NCBI GenBank assembly: GCA_947311255.1
Contig: CAMZKL010000016.1
Coordinates: forward strand, 35,340-99,339
Source of the DNA: an uncultured Chlorobiota bacterium
GTDB taxonomy: Bacteria; Bacteroidota; Bacteroidia; Bacteroidales; JAADGE01
Reading direction: 5' to 3'
DNA length: 64,000 nucleotides
The position numbers and the translations under genes are program-made. Below are positions 1-59,751 of this stretch, piece after piece; the first letter of the stretch is position 1; every line of letters begins with the position of its first letter. The notes under the pieces were generated by a model, which had not been told where the DNA came from, did no database searches, and saw only the letters and a program-made list of their open reading frames with translations.

Positions 1-3000
1 AGCGGAATAGTCCACATTTTAGCTTTTGGGCTGTTATGAGAATTAAGTGTTAAGTTTTGAAGATGAATTGTTGAATAAATTCCAAATTCTTGATTAACAT
101 CTGTATTTCCATTCCCAAGAGTAATTGTTGTTCCGGAACTTAAATTACTTGTTGCAGGGTCAAGATATAAACTTGCAAAAGTAGGGTTAGTTTGTTGACT
201 TACAATTGTTAAACTTCCAGCAGTGTGTGTAAAATTACTTCCTGTATTTAGAATTTCAAAAACTCCTCTGTTCCCTTCGGGAGCAGAATTTTTACCAACT
301 ACAACTGTTCCGCCTGTTTGGATGTAATTTAATATGCCGGAAGTTGAGTTTAAACCTCTTCTGATTTGAGACCCAACTGTTAGAACTCAACTTGAAATTT
401 CTAGTGTTGCATTTCCAGATGATGAATATTGAATATAGTTATTTCCGTTATTTGCATTGTCGTCCATATTTACAGCACCTCCTGATATGAGTAATTTTCC
501 ATCAAGAAGAATACCTGTATCATCTCCCGAAGCATTTACTTGTCCTGCTCTAATTTCTAGTGCTGCTTCGACAGGGATTTCAAAATTGTCATCGCCGGTT
601 GTGAGGTCTATATTTATAGCTGCGTTATTAAGAATAAGTGTACCATTCTTCATTTCGAGTGCTTTTTTAACTCCTGCACCAAGAGTTGGTCCATTAAGGT
701 TAAAGTCATTTTGAAAAGTGAAAGTATTTGTTTGGTTAGTACCTTTATTCATTTCAATACGATACAAATCCATAATTGTCCCACCTGTATTTGTGTATGT
801 ATTGTTTGTTTCGCCATCTAATTCAAGGATTACACTAGTTCTATCTGTTGCTGTGAAAAGGTCTATATTATCTTCATTTATAATAATATCTCCTCCAACT
901 ATGAATCTGTGTTCTAATGTGCTTGCAACTCCCGGGTCATCCACCATTATAGGGTCAGAAATAACCACATTCCCTTTTACAGTAACTGTTACAGGACTTC
1001 CAGTAGCCGGGAAATGAAAATTACCTCTATTTGCTTGCCAATCTTGGTCTGTTATTCTTAAATTCCTTTTAATTAGAATATCATCTGCTGCAATAATATC
1101 GTAACAGTGATAGCCTGAAACTAAATCATAATTGATTACAAGGTTTGCTTGATCAATTGTATAATGTGCTGATTCAAAAAATACAGAAGGAGCTGGTTGA
1201 GGGATATTATTCATAGTGTAAGAAGAACCTCCTGAAGTTGTAAAAATTAGATATCTGGAACTGCTGTGAGAAGCAAAATCTCCAAAATCTCCACTAACTA
1301 CCGGACTTACATGCCTATTGAATGAAATTGTCCCGGTACCTTTTACTACACCAATATCATAAGGTACTGTATTTACGTAAAATTGTACTCGCGAGCCAGC
1401 ATTTGTAAGGTTTACCTCAGCTGGATTTTGTGAACTTGGTTGTGCTGTCCCTGCATTTGTATTATCAACATCCATAATATCACCAGCACTAATAATGACA
1501 ATACTTCCTGCTGTGGGCACTTGGTTTTCTACCCAATCAGCAGCAGTAGTCCACCTTCCACGATTAGGGGGATTTTTTGTATGAGCATTTGAGTGAAAAA
1601 TTGCAACAGTACCGGTAAACCTTGCAGTTACTCCCGCAGTATAGTTTGCTTTTTCAAGAGTAAAACCTGTATCAGTTTGCCCGTTAAATGTAATTCTGTT
1701 ATTTCCTGCATTTACACCTTCATTTTCAGGAACTGTTTCATCTTCATAGCTTCTTGTATAAGGATTCTCATCTAAAACTTTCCCTGCCACATAATTTGTT
1801 TCTGTTCCTACAATATCAGAATCATCATAATCAAACTGAACAGAAGTAACAGTTGGTAGTGTAGTAAAATCACTATAGCCAACTCTCCAATAATAATCAA
1901 GCAAATCGCCACTTCCTAAATTTGTTGTTTGAAGTTCGCCGTCAACAGGTCTTATTGTTATGTATCCGTCATCTGAAAAGTTGCTTACTATTACTCTAGC
2001 AGGAGTGTATCTGTTTGAAGTAGTTCTAGTTCCAAGAGGAAATGTATATGTCCCGTTTGCAGTTGTTAATATTGATATGCCGCCGTCAGAATGATTTCCG
2101 TCAGAATATATCATTCTATTAACATTTGCTTGATTACGTGTAAGATTGTTAGGAGTAGAATTGAGATGTAAATAATCAACTTTAAGATTATAGGATGCTA
2201 TATTATATAAACCCTGAAAAAATCCTATTCTTTTTATATAAATATCACTTGTAAAAGTAATAGTTCCTGTAGAGTTGAATTTTATATTTCCAAATAAAGC
2301 CCCATTTTCAGATAGAACTGTTAAATCTCCGTCTCTGAACATTACATATGCTGTTCTTGGAGTTGTTCCATGCGTATAAAAACCCAATTCACCAATTTTA
2401 GAAACAAAAACTCCTTGAAAAAGTCTAACGGATTGTCTTCCTTGGTCAAGAATTCCGCTTTCAATTCTGCAATCATTTACAACATGAACCAAACGATTGT
2501 GCCACTCAGCACCTACCACATTAGGGTCTTTGTTCGGATCTCCCATAACAGTTATTCTTGTCCCTTGTGATTTGTTCACTGTAAAGTTGTAGAAATATTG
2601 CTCATATCCGTCATCTGTATTATGCCCGATATATAATTCTCCATCTTCTGCTCCGTTGAAAATAGTTGTATTTGTTCCGTAAACATAAGAGGCCCCTTCT
2701 TCAATAGAAAAGTTTCGTCCTACTGTTAAGTTTTCATTGTTAGTAATAAAATCATTAATTGATGCCTCTAATGTTAAATCGTTTAATACAACAAGTGGTT
2801 GTGCCGCTAAATCGGCATCAGAATTTCCGTTAATATTTGTTCCTGCATCTAAAACATGGTCAGCTGAATTGCCGGCAGTATTTCTCATAATTAAATTATA
2901 AAAAGGTGCCGTCGAAGTAATTTTGAAATTATTTGTAGTTCCTGCAATCTCGGCAATTACTGTTCCGCCTGTTATATTTATATTTGAAGCATCAGAGCCT

Positions 3001-5717
3001 ATAAAAATACCTCCTGAATTAGAATCCGAACCATTTGCATCATATATATGTAATGTTCCTCCTGACATATTAAATACATTGCCAGGATAAGTCATTGAAA
3101 AGTGATAATAATTACCATTAGTATTTGTCGGATTAATTATATTTGCACTACCTCCTGATTGAATATAACTTCCTACATGAGAAGCACCTAGAACTGATGT
3201 TCTTATTTGATTTGCAGTTAATGTGCCACCTTCAACTTGTACTGAACCTGCACCTCTTAAAGTAAATCCTTGCGGAACAAGAGCTTCAAAAGTTCCTGCT
3301 GTAATTTTAGCAACACCATAAGGTACAATTGCATTGGAAGGTGAACTTGTTGATACTGTACCGCCGTCAACCCAAAGCATCGCAGCCTCTGAAATATTGT
3401 AATTACCGTTTCTGTTTAAATGTGGAATTTCAACATTGTTTCTAATACGAACAGTACCTCTTAATAAACCTAAAGCATTATTATTTGAAGCTAGTTGGGC
3501 AAGTCCGCTATGAGCCTGGTGTGCATATCCAAAAAGTTTAAAATTAGCTGTTGAACTTGCAGAGATTGATAATTCATAGGTCATATCAGTACCTTTATCT
3601 ATTTCAATTCTGTAAAAATTAGTTATTCCGTTGCAAAGTACTGTTTGATTAGAGTTGTTACTTAAAAAGTTAGCATCTACAATACCGTTTGTTGCTTCTC
3701 CATCGTAATATGCGGAAACTAAAGGTAAAGTCCTGTTTGTAAACTTAACAGTACCGTTGTTAGTAAAATTTCCATATATATTAAATTGATGCCTTGCATT
3801 TGCTGTGCCAGTTAAAATTTGACCAGTATTTTCAATAAAAACGTTTCCTTTAACAGTTAAATTTAAGTTTGTTGTTGATGCGTTGTCATTAATTTGGAAA
3901 TTTCCTGTCTCAATAACTAATTTTCCGTTAATTGTATAGTCTGCAAGTTGTGTTATTGTATTTCCTGGTGCTGATAAATCAACTTCCATATTGAAAAAAG
4001 TATGAGCAGTTGCTAAGTTGTATGAACCACCTTGCCATACAACAGTACCTTCTCCTTGTCCTGCTGAAACGAAATGGGTTGCATCTCCCAAAGGGAAATT
4101 ATCGCTTGCAAGTCTTATTCTTCCACTTCCATTTATTTTTGTAAAATTGTGTCCTGTTGTTGTTCCTATATCTAAAATTCCATCCACAACAATATCTGCA
4201 ACAATTTTATTGTTTGTTGTAATTGTAATGGTTTTACCGGTGTGAATAATGACTTTATCTCCTGAAAGTGGAATTTCATTAGCAGGATTGTTTGGCAATG
4301 AACCTGATGGGTCTAATGTCCAAAAAGTTGGAGTGTCCCAGTCTCCACTTGCAAGAGCATACCACGTTCTTCCTGCAACGCCTTCTATTGGACTGTTTGT
4401 TTGATTGTCAGTTCCTATGGTATAATAACCATCTGATAAGTTTGCATTTGCGATATTAAAAAAAACTTGGTCAGCATCTAAAGTTCCTTGCGATGCTACT
4501 GTAACTTTTGAATATGCACCTGTTGTGGCAGCTCTGTATAGTAGCACATAGTTTGCCACATTTGCAGGATATTCTCCGTCTGTTAGTGCTTCTTTAAAAT
4601 CAAATATAAGTTTAGCATCTATTCCATCAGTTGAGTTTTTTTTAATATACCACTGTCTTGCCCATGATGCTTGTGTACTTGCGGGTAAATCTCCTCCAGT
4701 ATAAGTTGTTGTTGAATTATTTGTTGTATTAGAATGTCCCAACATAAGATATTCTCCATTTGCAAGGGATGAATTCCATTCGTAAAGATATAATCCTCCG
4801 GAAGAAGTTTGAGTATGATTTCCATCTGCTTCTTGTCCAATACCTGCTATGTTATGCACATAAGAAGCATTGTTTCCTGTATATTTATCATTAGCAGGTG
4901 TTGCAAAAGCAAGATTATATTTTTCGCTTAGGTAATTTTCAACAATTAGTCTTTGTGCTGAATTTAAGAATGAGTTATACATAATTATTTCGGCAATTTC
5001 TCCTTGGAATGCTTGATTTGGAGCAAATGGTGCTCCGGTTCCGGAATTATCTTGTTCACCTCCAATAGCCAATCTTCCTCCTGAGGGAATAGAACCAGTC
5101 CTTGTTCCTGTATGTATTTGATTGCCATCTCTGTAATAAATAATATTACCTCCGCTACTTTTCCATTTGTGAGACATTATTTGCCAACTCCCCGAGTTAT
5201 AGTCAGGTTCACCTGCAGGAGGATTATAAACTCCTCCATTTATAAATGTCATCATATTATTGTTATCATATAACAGAAAAGCATTATCAACAGTTGAAGT
5301 ATTATATGAAATAAGTCCATCTCCAGAATCTGTAGTTTTATAAATCACAAAATTTGTTATTCCTGATGTTGGCATATCATTAAAAGGATCTATAACTATT
5401 CTGTTATTTACTTTTGAAAATTCTGCTCTTGGATGTCCATTAATATTTCCAGCATTATCTCTAAAAATTGGTGTAAACCCAGAAGTTAATTGAGTTAGGT
5501 TATTTCCATTTCCTGAAACATCATTCCAAGTTGCGAGGTCATTTCCATTTGTATAAGCCAATGTGCTAGCATCAAGCCAAAGTACATTTTTAGGTTGGCC
5601 AGCAGAACCATCAGTACTGCCAACACCACCTGGTCCTGTTTGAGAATAAAGATTTAAACTTAAAAAACTAATTAAAAGAAAGATAAAAGTTTTTTTAGGT
5701 TTTAGATTAATTTTCAT
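1..5717 (-). CDS. Giant LamG-like/DUF8202-type surface protein with beta-helix-like repeats; runs off the left edge, interrupted by in-frame TGA at 387-389
   Basis: ORF 387..5717 has a signal peptide (MKINLKPKKTFIFLLISFLSLNLYSQ), LamG-like region and G/T/N-rich repeats. My translation of 386..1 in the same frame (VLTVGSQIRRGLNSTSGILNYIQTGGTVVVGKNSAPEGNRGVFEILNTGS...) has no stop to the window edge. Confidence 0.8.
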
Positions 5718-44929: not shown

Positions 44930-47900
44930 ATGAAAAAACTAATGCTATTACTGGCATTCTTCTCAATTGTAGGAATGCAAGTTTATGCTCAAAAAACGGT
45001 AACAGGTACAGTTATTGATGACTCAGGAGAAGGTGTTCCCGGAGTTAGTGTACTTGTAAAAGGAACAACAGTAGGTACGATGACTCTTGGTGATGGTACG
45101 TACTCCGTAGAAGTTCCTGATGGATCTAACACTTTAGTATTTTCATACATTGGTATGGAAACTCAAGAAGTTGCAATTTCCGGAAATGTTATGAATGTTA
45201 CATTAAGTGCATCAAGTGAAGATATTGATGAAGTTGTTGTAACAGCTTACGGTATTGTAAGAGAAAAACGTGAAACTACCTATCAAACTGAAAAAGTTTC
45301 TAGTGAAGAACTTATGACTAGTGCACCTACAAGAGCTGCTGCTGGTTTAGTAGGTAAAGTTGCCGGTATGCAGGTTAATCTTCAAGATAATGGAGTTAAG
45401 CCTAATGCGCAAATTCTTTTAAGAGGTTTAAGATCTGTAAGTGGAAATAATGAAGCACTTGTTGTAATTGATGGTTCAATTTCTTCTATGAGTGCATACA
45501 ATGACCTAAATCCAAATGACATTGAAAGTCAAAACATTCTTAAAGGAGCAAATGCTGCTGCCCTTTATGGTTCTAATGCAGCAAATGGTGCTTTAATTGT
45601 TGTTACAAAAAAAGGAACTTTATCTGAAAAACTTACTGTTGGTTTAAATTCATCAGTTACGTTTGAAAAAGTTGCTTATATGCCAGATTTTCAAGATCAA
45701 TATGGTACTGGTTGGGCTGGTGCTTATGACAATGTTGAGAATACAAACTGGGGACCACGTTTTGACGGAACTCTTCGTCAAATTGGACCAACATTCCCTG
45801 CAGGCCATGCATTAACTACTCAAATGGTTCCTTATGCTCCTGTTAAAGATAATCTTAAAGATTTTTTCCAAACAGGTAATACTATCATTAATGATATTTA
45901 TTTAAAAGGTGGTAATGAAACAAGTACATATTATTTATCTGTTGGAGACCAAAGAACAAAAGGTATTGTTTTAGATGACTCTTACAGAAGAAATACAATA
46001 AGAGTTAATGCTTCAAAAACTATTGATAAAGTTGTTTTAAGTTCAAATATCAGTTTCTTAAATGACAAGGTTGATGTTGTTGGTGATAATATAGGAGATC
46101 AAGATAGACCTTTATATTGGTTTGTTTTAAATACATCTGCAAATATTCCTTTATCAACTTACAAAGACTGGGAAAATCCTAAGAGTTATGCATATGCTGA
46201 TAATTATTATAATGCATATTACCAAAACCCATATTGGGCAATAGGGACTAACAGAAATATTGATTACTCCAACAGATTTAATGGAACTTTTAATGTTAAA
46301 TATGATGTTTTTGATTGGTTAGTTTTTAATACTAATTTTAATGTTAATAATTCTTGGGGAACTGGTAAAGATTGGAGAGCATCACAAGCCTATGATGCAA
46401 CTCTACAACCATCTCATTCTTATGTAAGCTCTAAAGTTGAAGATTTTGAATTTCAAGATTCAAGATATAACTTAAATGCAATATTTTCTTCCAATAATAA
46501 TTTAACTGATATGATTTCTTTAAAAGTTAATTTAGGAGCTGCAACTGATTCAAGAAAATACAGAGAAAGTACTATTACTGCAAACAATCTTAGTATAGAA
46601 GGTTTTTATGATGTTTCTAACGGAACAGGATCACCTGTAATTAATGTTAATCAATCACAAAGAAGAGGAATTGGTGTTTTTGGAGATATGACTTTAGGTT
46701 ATGGAAATTTTATTTTCCTATATGCTTCTGGAAGACAAGATTGGACTTCAACATTACCTGTTGATAATAACAGTTATTTTTATCCTTCTGTTGGTCTTTC
46801 TTTTGTTGCAACTGATGCAATATCTGCATTGAAAAATAATAGTATTTTATCCGATGCAAGATTTACAGTAAGTAATTCAACCGTATATTCTTCTTTCAGA
46901 CCATATTTGACTAATGAATCATATAGTCAAGCCGGAGGTTTTCCTTATGGAGATGTGAACGGATTTGATTTGTCAAGAACAGCTATTGATCCAAACATTA
47001 AAAAAGAAAAACTAAATACAACTGAAATTGGTATGAATTTATCATTTTTAAAAGACAGAATTAGTTTAGCTACTTCGTATTATATGACTAAAACAACCGA
47101 TTTAATTACTTACACAACTCCTTCAACAACATCTGGTGCAACAAGAGTTCTTACAAATATTGGAGAATTACAAGGTAAAGGTGTTGAATTAACTCTTGGT
47201 GCAACTGTATTAGATATGAAAGGATTCAAATGGCAATTAAATGCTAATTATACATCAAATTCCTCAAAAATAATTTCTATCAAAGATGATTTGGATGAAA
47301 TTAGTATTTGGAGTACTGATTCTTGGGGTGTATATGCTGTGAAAGGTGAAGAATTCCCTCAAATTAAAGCAAATACCTATAAAATGCATGATGGCAAATT
47401 TATTATTAACCCATCTACTGGATATCCAATTCAAGAAGAAGGTGTTCATAATATGGGAAGAACAACTCCTAAATATATAGCTGCCTTAACTTCAATATTT
47501 ACATATAAAGGCTTTTCTCTTTCAGCAACTGGAGATTACAGAACAGGACATGTATATTACGAGCAAGGATCTGATGTAATGGAATTTACAGGAAGATCTG
47601 TTGCAAGTGTTTCTGCAAACCGACAAGATTTTGTAATTCCTAATTCTGTTTACGAAACAAGTCCTGGAGTTTTTGTTGAAAATACAAATATTCAGGTACA
47701 AGGTGGAGATATGAATTATTGGAAAGATATTTATAATCAAGTGAAATCTAATTATATAAAAGATGCAAGTGCTCTTAAAATTAGAGAATTAACTTTCTCG
47801 TATGAACTTCCAAAGAAATTTGTAAAGAAAGCAAAATTAGAAAAATTAAAAATTGGTTTTGTAACAAGAAATCTTAAAACTTGGTTGCCCGCAGATAACA

Positions 47901-48037
47901 GATTCTCTGATCCTGAGTTTAAAAATCAGGTTTCAAGAGGAGGAAGTACTACACCTGCGAATGCTATTGGTATTGGTGGATATATGCAATCTCCTCCAAC
48001 TTGGTCATACGGATTTAATCTTAATATTGAATTTTAA
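44930..48037 (+). CDS. SusC/RagA family TonB-linked outer-membrane protein
   Basis: Start MKKLMLLLAFFSIVGMQVYAQKTVTGTVIDDSGEGVPGVSVLVKGT; IDEVVVTAYG; ends FNLNIEF. Confidence 0.97.
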   Translation: MKKLMLLLAFFSIVGMQVYAQKTVTGTVIDDSGEGVPGVSVLVKGTTVGTMTLGDGTYSVEVPDGSNTLVFSYIGMETQEVAISGNVMNVTLSASSEDIDEVVVTAYGIVREKRETTYQTEKVSSEELMTSAPTRAAAGLVGKVAGMQVNLQDNGVKPNAQILLRGLRSVSGNNEALVVIDGSISSMSAYNDLNPNDIESQNILKGANAAALYGSNAANGALIVVTKKGTLSEKLTVGLNSSVTFEKVAYMPDFQDQYGTGWAGAYDNVENTNWGPRFDGTLRQIGPTFPAGHALTTQMVPYAPVKDNLKDFFQTGNTIINDIYLKGGNETSTYYLSVGDQRTKGIVLDDSYRRNTIRVNASKTIDKVVLSSNISFLNDKVDVVGDNIGDQDRPLYWFVLNTSANIPLSTYKDWENPKSYAYADNYYNAYYQNPYWAIGTNRNIDYSNRFNGTFNVKYDVFDWLVFNTNFNVNNSWGTGKDWRASQAYDATLQPSHSYVSSKVEDFEFQDSRYNLNAIFSSNNNLTDMISLKVNLGAATDSRKYRESTITANNLSIEGFYDVSNGTGSPVINVNQSQRRGIGVFGDMTLGYGNFIFLYASGRQDWTSTLPVDNNSYFYPSVGLSFVATDAISALKNNSILSDARFTVSNSTVYSSFRPYLTNESYSQAGGFPYGDVNGFDLSRTAIDPNIKKEKLNTTEIGMNLSFLKDRISLATSYYMTKTTDLITYTTPSTTSGATRVLTNIGELQGKGVELTLGATVLDMKGFKWQLNANYTSNSSKIISIKDDLDEISIWSTDSWGVYAVKGEEFPQIKANTYKMHDGKFIINPSTGYPIQEEGVHNMGRTTPKYIAALTSIFTYKGFSLSATGDYRTGHVYYEQGSDVMEFTGRSVASVSANRQDFVIPNSVYETSPGVFVENTNIQVQGGDMNYWKDIYNQVKSNYIKDASALKIRELTFSYELPKKFVKKAKLEKLKIGFVTRNLKTWLPADNRFSDPEFKNQVSRGGSTTPANAIGIGGYMQSPPTWSYGFNLNIEF

Positions 48038-56565: not shown

Positions 56566-59500
56566 TTATATTTTGAATCCTAAAATTAAAATATCATCAA
56601 TTTGTAAAGAATTAGCTTTCCAATTATAGAATGTTTCTTCAATAATTTGTTGTTGCTCATCCATGTCTTTATCTGAAATTTCAATAAGTAGTTCTTGGAA
56701 ACGTTTTATTTTAAATTTTTTGCCTGTTTTTCCGTTAAATTGATCAACATAGCCATCTGAGAACATATAAACAATATCATCTTTTTGAAGTTGGAATTTT
56801 ATATTCTTAAATGGAATTTCTTTAATAAATACTCCAACAGGATTGAATGTTGGTTGCAGAACAATTATTTCTTTGTTTCTAACTATGTATAGAGGATTAA
56901 TGGCACCGGAATATTCAAACTCATTAGTTTTTTTATTTAAAGCACAAATAGCCATTTCAATTCCTTCGTCTCTTTCTTCAAGCCTACCTTTTTGTTTTAA
57001 TAAAACTTTAATTTCTTTTCTTAATTCTTCAAGTACCTGACTTGGTTGTGTTATTTTTTTATTCGAAACAATTTCTGTTAGCATAGAAATACCAAGCATA
57101 CTAACTAATGCGCCAGGTATCCCGTGTCCTGTGCAATCTGCTGCTACAACAACAACATGATGTTCTCCCTTTGATTTGTATTCTTTTGCCCAATAAAAGT
57201 CGCCACTTAAAATGTCTTTTGGTTTATAGAATAAATTAAATTCTTGAAAGTTATTTCTGAAAATTTGCAATGAAGGAAACATTGCATCTTGAATTTTTCC
57301 TGCATAATTAATACTGTCTGTAATTTTATCATTACTTGTTTGTAATTCTTCTTTTTGTTCTTTTAACTCTTCTTTTTGCGTTTTAAGTTCTCTGGTTCTT
57401 TCGTTAACTTCATTTTCTAACTTACGTTTTGCTTTTTTTAGAGAGCGGGTTCTTAATTCAAATATTGAGAATGTTATTACAATTAATATAAATAGCATTA
57501 AAGTAGTAAACCAAGTTTCTTTCCAAAAAGGTGCCTTAATTTCAAAAGAGAAAGTTGCAGGAACTATATTCCAAATGTTGTCATTATTTGCAGAAATAAC
57601 TTGAAATTGATATTTTCCGGGAGTAATATTTGAAAAAACAGCAGTTTTTACAGTGCTTGGTGGGGACCAATTATCATTTTGTCCAATCAATCTGTAAGAG
57701 TATTTTACACTCTTAGGATTTGAAAAACATAAGCCTATATAATTTATACTAAGGTGGTTATTGTTATAAGGTAAAACTAAATTTTGAGGAATATTTTTGT
57801 AATTTACAGAATCTGTATATATATGCCAATTAGTTTTTTTAAAAAATAATCTAATACTAGAAATGTAAATTTTATTTTTAATAGTATTAGTTTTATCAGC
57901 TGATTTATTGTATTTTGCTGCTCCATTAACCGTTCCAAATCATATATCTCCATTTTTGTCTTCCAGTGCAGCATTTATATTTGTTTCAATCCCAATAAAA
58001 CCTTCATTTTTTGTATAGTTTTTTATATCAATAAGCTCATTATTTTTATTGAAGATTAATTTATCAACACCTTTTTCACTTCCACACCAAAGGTTTCCTT
58101 CTGTGTCAGAAAAAAGGAGATAAATATTGTCAGAACTTAAACCGTCTATTTTTTGAAATTGTTTAAATACATATTTTCCGTTTTCTTTGGTTATTTTAAA
58201 AACTCCGTTAGAGCCTGTTCCCATCCATAATGTTCCTTTTCTGTTAATAATTGTTCTGTAATATACTTTTTCAATATTTGTATTTATTTTTGTAACATTT
58301 TTCCCATTATATTTGAAAAGTCCTTCGTTTATAGTTCCAATCCAAATATTATTTTCATTATCTTCGCAAAATGTCATTATATCTTTGGCATATAAACCAA
58401 TTTCTTTTCCAAATTGTTTAACATTTGTACCATCATATAAATATACACCTCTACTATTTGTTCCAAACCATAAATTGTTTTTACTATCTTTATAAATTGT
58501 TAAAATTCGTTTGGGAATTTCCTCGCCAGAAGAAGTTTTTATTTTTGAAAATGTTTTCCCGTTATATTTTATTATTCCGTTATTTCCCGAAGCAAACCAA
58601 AGATTACCAAATTTATCAGTTTCAACATCAAAAAAATGATTGTCTATTGTTCCGTTGTCTTTATTATAGTATGTGTATTTCTTTCCGTCAAATTTTGTTA
58701 ATCCAAATCCGTAAGTACAAAACCAAATATTACTGTCCATATCTAAGTTCATTCCCATAACAATCTCATTCTCAAAAGTACTAATTTTATCATAATGAAT
58801 AAAGGGAATTATGGTATTGAGCATTGTTGCACCATTTCTACCTCCTATCCAAATGTTTTTTTCATTATCTTCAAAAATTGATAAAACTGCAGTGTTTGTA
58901 AGGCCATTTTTTGCAGTAATATTATTGAATTTATTGTCTTTTAAAAAACCGCAACCTGCTTGTTCAGAAGAATATCAAAGGTTATCGTCAGAATCAATAA
59001 GAACATTATTAATGTTGTTATTTAATAAACCGTTTTTTAATGTAAAATTTTGTATTGTAAAATCAGGAGATATTTTGTAAATACCAAAGTTTCTAGATGA
59101 AATCCATATATTTCCTTTTTTGTCTTCGGCAAAAGAAGTCATTGGTTTAACAATATTATTATAAATTTTAGGGATTTCAGTAAAATTGTTATCCTTAAAT
59201 TTGTATATTTTTCTGTTGCCTAATGCTAATATATCTCCATTTTGTTTTATTAAAAATTGAATAGGATGTATTTTCTTTGATATTTTTAAAATTACACCAT
59301 CATCAAAAATATTTGTCCCTTTAAGTGTTGATATTATTATCCTGCCATCATTTAATTCAAAAGTTCTTAAAATAAAATTTGAGAATAAGCCTTCTTCTTT
59401 AGTGAAAGTTTTAAATTTACCTTTTTCTAATTTAGACAGCCCATTTTTTGTTGAAATCCAAATTCGTCCTTTCTTGTCTTGTATAATATGTGAAACAATA

Positions 59501-59751
59501 TTATTTTTAAGACCATTTTTGTTATTGTAAATTTTATAATTAAATCCGTTAAATTTTACAGCACCGTTTTGAGTTGCAAACCATAAATACCCTTCTTTGT
59601 CTTGTGTTATATAATCTGCATTAGATTGCGGAAAGCCGTTATCTACTGAATAATTTTCGTAATTAAAAAGTTGTGCATCCGAAATGCTTACATTATAGAA
59701 TGATGTTATTATAATTAAAAATAGAAACTTGTATTTTCTAATTCTGTGCAT
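56566..59751 (-). CDS. Two-component regulator propeller (Reg_prop) / Y_Y_Y / PP2C-SpoIIE sensor phosphatase, interrupted by two in-frame TGA codons (58975-58977 and 57940-57942)
   Basis: Three ORFs (58975..59751, 57940..58824, 56566..57690) are in the same frame (spacing multiples of 3) and no other stop occurs. TGAs fall in SDDNL[TGA]YSSEQ and DKNGDI[TGA]FGTVNG, matching the repeat DxxGNLWxGT. Confidence 0.88.

Follow-up and report, generated by a model that had tools for sequence, protein, structure and literature searches.

The question raised by this locus is whether a sensor gene with two in-frame TGA codons, each standing where a tryptophan is expected, is still translated in full through some reading of UGA as Trp, or has only lately been broken by point mutation. 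The window, by which we mean the whole stretch of 64,000 nucleotides that was analysed, corresponds to C16:35340-99339 of a 2.81 Mb assembly in 75 contigs with an estimated completeness of 94.5%, which has the features of a metagenome bin. The gene and its parts are as follows.

56566..59751, minus strand, C16:91905-95090 in the assembly: the whole reading frame of the sensor, 1062 codons from ATG to TAA, with a signal peptide, Reg_prop propeller repeats, Y_Y_Y, a transmembrane segment and a SpoIIE-type phosphatase
58975..58977, minus strand: in-frame TGA at codon 259; TGG in the sister species, Trp in 10/10 covering relatives
57940..57942, minus strand: in-frame TGA at codon 604; TGG in the sister species, Trp in 11/11 relatives
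58975..59751, minus strand: fragment 1, an ORF of 258 aa with the N-terminal propeller repeats
57940..58824, minus strand: fragment 2, an ORF of 294 aa with the middle propeller repeats, the frame itself being open from 58974
56566..57690, minus strand: fragment 3, an ORF of 374 aa with the end of Y_Y_Y, the transmembrane segment and the SpoIIE phosphatase, the frame itself being open from 57939

The initial annotation, made from the letters and their open reading frames, had joined three adjacent ORFs into one frame with these two TGAs as the only stops between them. Reading the frame confirms both statements: it runs for all its 1062 codons on the minus strand, shows no indel against the sister species, and has TGA 259 and TGA 604 as its sole stops ahead of the terminal TAA. 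The gaps of 50 and 83 codons given there also hold, as the distances to the next ATG, GTG or TTG; with ATG only, the second becomes 147. On this frame Pfam finds Reg_prop repeats, Y_Y_Y (676-739) and SpoIIE (863-1059), while the signal peptide and the transmembrane segment were assigned by eye, and the product is accordingly annotated here as a putative membrane sensor with a PP2C-like phosphatase output. Both TGAs occupy the Trp slot of the repeat motif (NLW and DIW), which is coded by TGG in the other repeats, and both are followed by U (UGA-U).

The nearest relative is the sister species G004 (contig CAMZKV010000045.1 in the public collection, labelled 'uncultured Chlorobi bacterium'), where a gene of equal length and 97% protein identity carries TGG at both sites. 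In the alignment with 11 further homologues, 10 of which cover column 259 and 11 column 604, Trp is invariant at both columns, just as the initial annotation had supposed from the repeats. Among the matches listed, from the genus and 393 genomes of the order, only the copy in this genome is interrupted, and its stops break conserved domains that close relatives keep intact.

As for the selection on this gene, dN/dS against G004 falls from 0.197 upstream of the first TGA, through 0.118 in the stretch between the two, to 0.076 downstream of the second. When the missense changes are polarised with outgroups, 16 fall on this genome's side and 12 on the side of G004, with 9 unresolved, and none of the 16 hits a column that 8 or more of the 11 relatives conserve. 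The low dN/dS together with the clean record at conserved columns shows that purifying selection acted on the gene through nearly its whole history and that the stops are young. No relaxation after the stops is seen (16 against 12 missense changes), a result that a very recent origin would leave identical, and it bars the label of an established pseudogene. The initial annotation expected a decaying gene to carry frameshifts or TAA and TAG codons as well, an argument that proves too strong, since a young nonsense allele need not show them.

Besides the sensor, a coding-potential survey of 2.05 Mb, of a kind that would miss stops near gene ends and all frameshifts, brings up few genes indeed whose continuous coding frame contains an in-frame stop. 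The TAA and TAG candidates that were translated were rejected as adjacent genes with non-ATG starts, the TAG at L258:10803 being the exception. The cases that stand are located as follows.

1..5717, minus strand: the window part of a giant surface-protein gene, whose frame continues outside the window to C16:30626 and ends in TAA
387..389, minus strand: the third in-frame TGA of the window, at codon 1777 of about 3476 of the giant surface protein; relatives have Gly
L258:10803-10805 on contig C9, minus strand: an in-frame TAG in a TPR/PAS histidine kinase; G004 has GAG

In the giant surface protein, which has a Pentaxin-like match near its N terminus, 1699 open codons follow the TGA with no frameshift. 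Four homologues in the genus have Gly at this column (GGT, GGC, GGA and GGA), and the TGA is thus most simply derived from GGA. The histidine kinase has a dN/dS of 0.19 against its G004 counterpart (L295) at a DNA divergence of about 11%, with only 2.5% in one flank; that counterpart in turn carries three in-frame TAA codons elsewhere, and the two copies have no stop in common and no frameshift. The search for other interrupted frames, as proposed in the initial annotation, does bring up further stops: one TGA at a Gly position and one TAG. The large accessory genes of this lineage thus carry point stops of several kinds, and at more than one type of residue.

The sensor is also far from being alone in its genome, where at least 24 further places match it as a query, mostly its SpoIIE-type C-terminal half, and a loss of the sensor would plausibly be buffered by them. 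No TGA is seen in these paralogous places. The SpoIIE-type output proteins form a large family for a genome of 2.8 Mb (C2, C5, C9, C36, C63 and C69 are among the contigs concerned), and this family is partly tandem, for example as two adjoining copies on C2.

Whether the genetic code itself has changed was approached through the tRNAs and the terminators, the survey of the latter covering 2.05 Mb, or 73% of the assembly. An Rfam search with the tRNAs typed finds one tRNA-Trp in the whole assembly, with anticodon CCA and 100% identical to that of G004, and no second Trp-like tRNA; no tRNA with a UCA anticodon is found in the 73% scanned. The anticodon stem TCGGT/ACCGA has five pairs, and the tRNA is therefore not of the form with a 4-bp stem that is known to read UGA (PMC13092985); G24 and A9 are kept (in our own numbering), so that the G24A change put forward as a possible sign of suppression does not turn up, nor, in the 73% scanned, does the UCA anticodon. 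A selenoprotein reading of UGA was rejected, as no match to RF01852 over the cut-off exists anywhere in the assembly, and the weak matches to this model fall on the positions of ordinary tRNAs, most of them with a long arm. Among the 919 ORFs of 250 aa or more, 60 end in TGA, the three cases in the window included, which leaves 57 others; a second count gives 61 of 949 ends, again with the three window cases. In the genus comparison the share is similar, at 5 of 55 ORFs at 200 aa, a small sample. The window cases aside, those ORFs that stay open for longest beyond their TGA enter non-coding sequence or meet the start of a new gene. The 981 long ORFs of the 2.05 Mb contain 4,891 TGG codons, and the only TGAs found at Trp positions there are the two of the sensor.

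The release factor gene prfB, whose state had been proposed as a further check, calls for some care. No gene of this genome passes the 370-bit cut-off of the family model, whose sole hits here are a prfA-like gene at 291.6 bits and a short gene resembling ArfB; by comparison prfB is present in G004 and in most relatives, in G004 with the classical CTTTGAC frameshift site. The alignment of the G004 neighbourhood of prfB to C42 of this genome breaks off 78 bases before the contig end, and the next 17 kb of G004 (L145:3155-20000) have no orthologous match anywhere in this assembly. That missing stretch of at least 17 kb holds, in G004, a T9SS plug gene, LolA-like genes and a SusD-like gene besides prfB. 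Because the whole stretch is absent and its absence begins at a contig end, what is missing is a piece of the assembly, probably a lost contig, to which the absence of prfB is traced: the gene is not in the assembly, its surroundings are not there either, no clean loss is indicated, and the genome may still carry prfB.

Taken with these data, the proposal that this species has reassigned UGA to Trp, or suppresses it efficiently, by loss of prfB and a suppressor tRNA, finds no support and appears highly improbable, and a changed code was rejected on the terminator use, the tRNA, the TGG counts and the TGA at Gly. In its favour are the two TGAs at invariant Trp and the prfB not found; against it are the fate of the prfB region, the 57 other TGA ends, the unchanged CCA tRNA, the paralogous places free of TGA and the TGA of the giant surface protein, an adhesin, at a Gly position. 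A milder form, in which the ordinary tRNA-Trp(CCA) reads both UGAs as Trp at a low level with no special machinery, is possible, if on the whole unlikely. The gene would then stay weakly functional and under selection, since the correct residue is inserted. Such a reading suits the two invariant Trp sites and the lack of other decay; Trp is moreover the main residue put in at UGA in E. coli (PMC11126739), some misreading of UGA by tRNA-Trp is expected in bacteria, and in-frame stops in genes with dN/dS below 1 are reported to be widespread in bacteria, mostly short-lived (PMC7918605). The main reason for leaving it some weight lies in the expected numbers of mutations. A random nonsense mutation here would be of the TGG>TGA type in 3.6-16.7% of cases, and each nonsense mutation should be accompanied by 12-17 missense changes; under neutrality, the chance of a second nonsense before any missense at a conserved site is about 1 in 6 to 7, and that of both hits being TGG>TGA is of the order of a percent, before allowing for the post hoc choice of the pattern. 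A double TGG>TGA without other damage is therefore mildly improbable under pure neutral decay. Speaking against low-level readthrough, UGA-U is a strong termination context in E. coli, where a following U lowers readthrough (PMC5289835), and T is likewise the most frequent base behind the TGA ends of this genome (28 of 60); passing two leaky stops in series would leave hardly any full-length product, and the TGA at a Gly position is unfit for a rescue specific to Trp. The stronger proposal, in which the reading of UGA as Trp reaches a useful level in this species, termination holds the synthesis of the sensor at a low level and TGG>TGA is near-neutral in this gene, seems improbable.

The stops may alternatively come from the assembly, the population having TGG and the contig carrying two wrong bases or the haplotype of a rare strain, a reading that we consider doubtful. 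The 75 contigs, the gaps and the incomplete estimate are what is expected of a metagenome bin, and isolated stops are found in two further genes. On the other hand, random error that gives two nonsense codons would bring about 25 missense changes over conserved columns, where none of the 16 changes lies, and neither the indel-free sensor nor the low dN in neighbouring genes, among which 45000-48037 is left out, fits with it. An error motif at both sites was rejected, since TGGT is all that the two contexts have in common, and the gene keeps its Trp codon at seven further TGGT sites. The assembly-error option of the initial annotation thus stays as a rival, weakened in that the many missense changes which random error should have left are not seen. 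It is also conceivable, with very little probability, that the gene is split and its fragments are made separately from internal starts, for example as a membrane-anchored phosphatase without its sensor. The ATG at 58824 and the TTG at 57690 permit internal ORFs; fragment 3, however, would begin inside Y_Y_Y at a TTG. Selection also covers the stretches between each stop and the next start, which is uninformative here because the stops are too recent.

We thus prefer, at a probability of roughly 60%, the explanation by two very recent G>A mutations (TGG>TGA) in a dispensable sensor gene, in this lineage or in the sampled population, which is the best supported of the options that the initial annotation had offered. 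It is favoured because both sites are TGG in G004 and the other listed homologues are free of stops, because other large accessory genes carry point stops of other kinds, because decoding is standard by the TGG counts, the TGA ends and the CCA tRNA-Trp, and because both stops precede U, a context that lowers readthrough in E. coli (PMC5289835). The mostly short-lived in-frame stops of PMC7918605 fit the case as well. Against it stand the lack of any sign of relaxed selection and the double Trp>TGA pattern, somewhat unusual though chosen post hoc. According to this explanation, the two mutations would lately have arisen in a functional sensor-phosphatase gene that the rest of the genus keeps intact; most likely, ribosomes would stop at UGA-259 and release a partial propeller without the transmembrane or phosphatase part, and the gene, one of many paralogues, would be a nascent pseudogene or else a loss-of-function allele that is still segregating. 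We infer that the TGAs are genuine alleles and no artefacts of assembly, and that the cell produces little of the full-length protein.

In comparison with known systems, the gene shares with the Reg_prop / Y_Y_Y / SpoIIE sensor phosphatases of Bacteroidota its domain layout and its intact orthologues through the genus, and differs by the two TGAs that occur only in this genome. The in-frame-stop genes described in 2021 (PMC7918605) are similar in being point nonsense in an otherwise intact and recently constrained gene, isolated and short-lived on the evolutionary scale, whereas the sensor has two TGAs in one gene, both at Trp; that study moreover focuses on stops common to several genomes, while those of the sensor are in no other species here. 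With the UGA=Trp codes of Mycoplasmatales, Zinderia and JAKLIH01 (PMC13092985) it has in common TGA at Trp positions; unlike in those, TGA here ends genes, the tRNA-Trp is the ordinary 5-bp CCA form, TGG outnumbers TGA by thousands to two, and another TGA sits at Gly.

If full-length protein were made, this would be a natural Trp-directed readthrough of UGA by which an uncultured lineage keeps one of its signalling genes alive, and the untouched G004 gene, 97% identical, would serve as its control. On present evidence an ordinary snapshot of recent gene loss is more likely, and the case illustrates that TGAs at Trp positions can suggest recoding while the tRNA, the terminator use and the relatives indicate otherwise.
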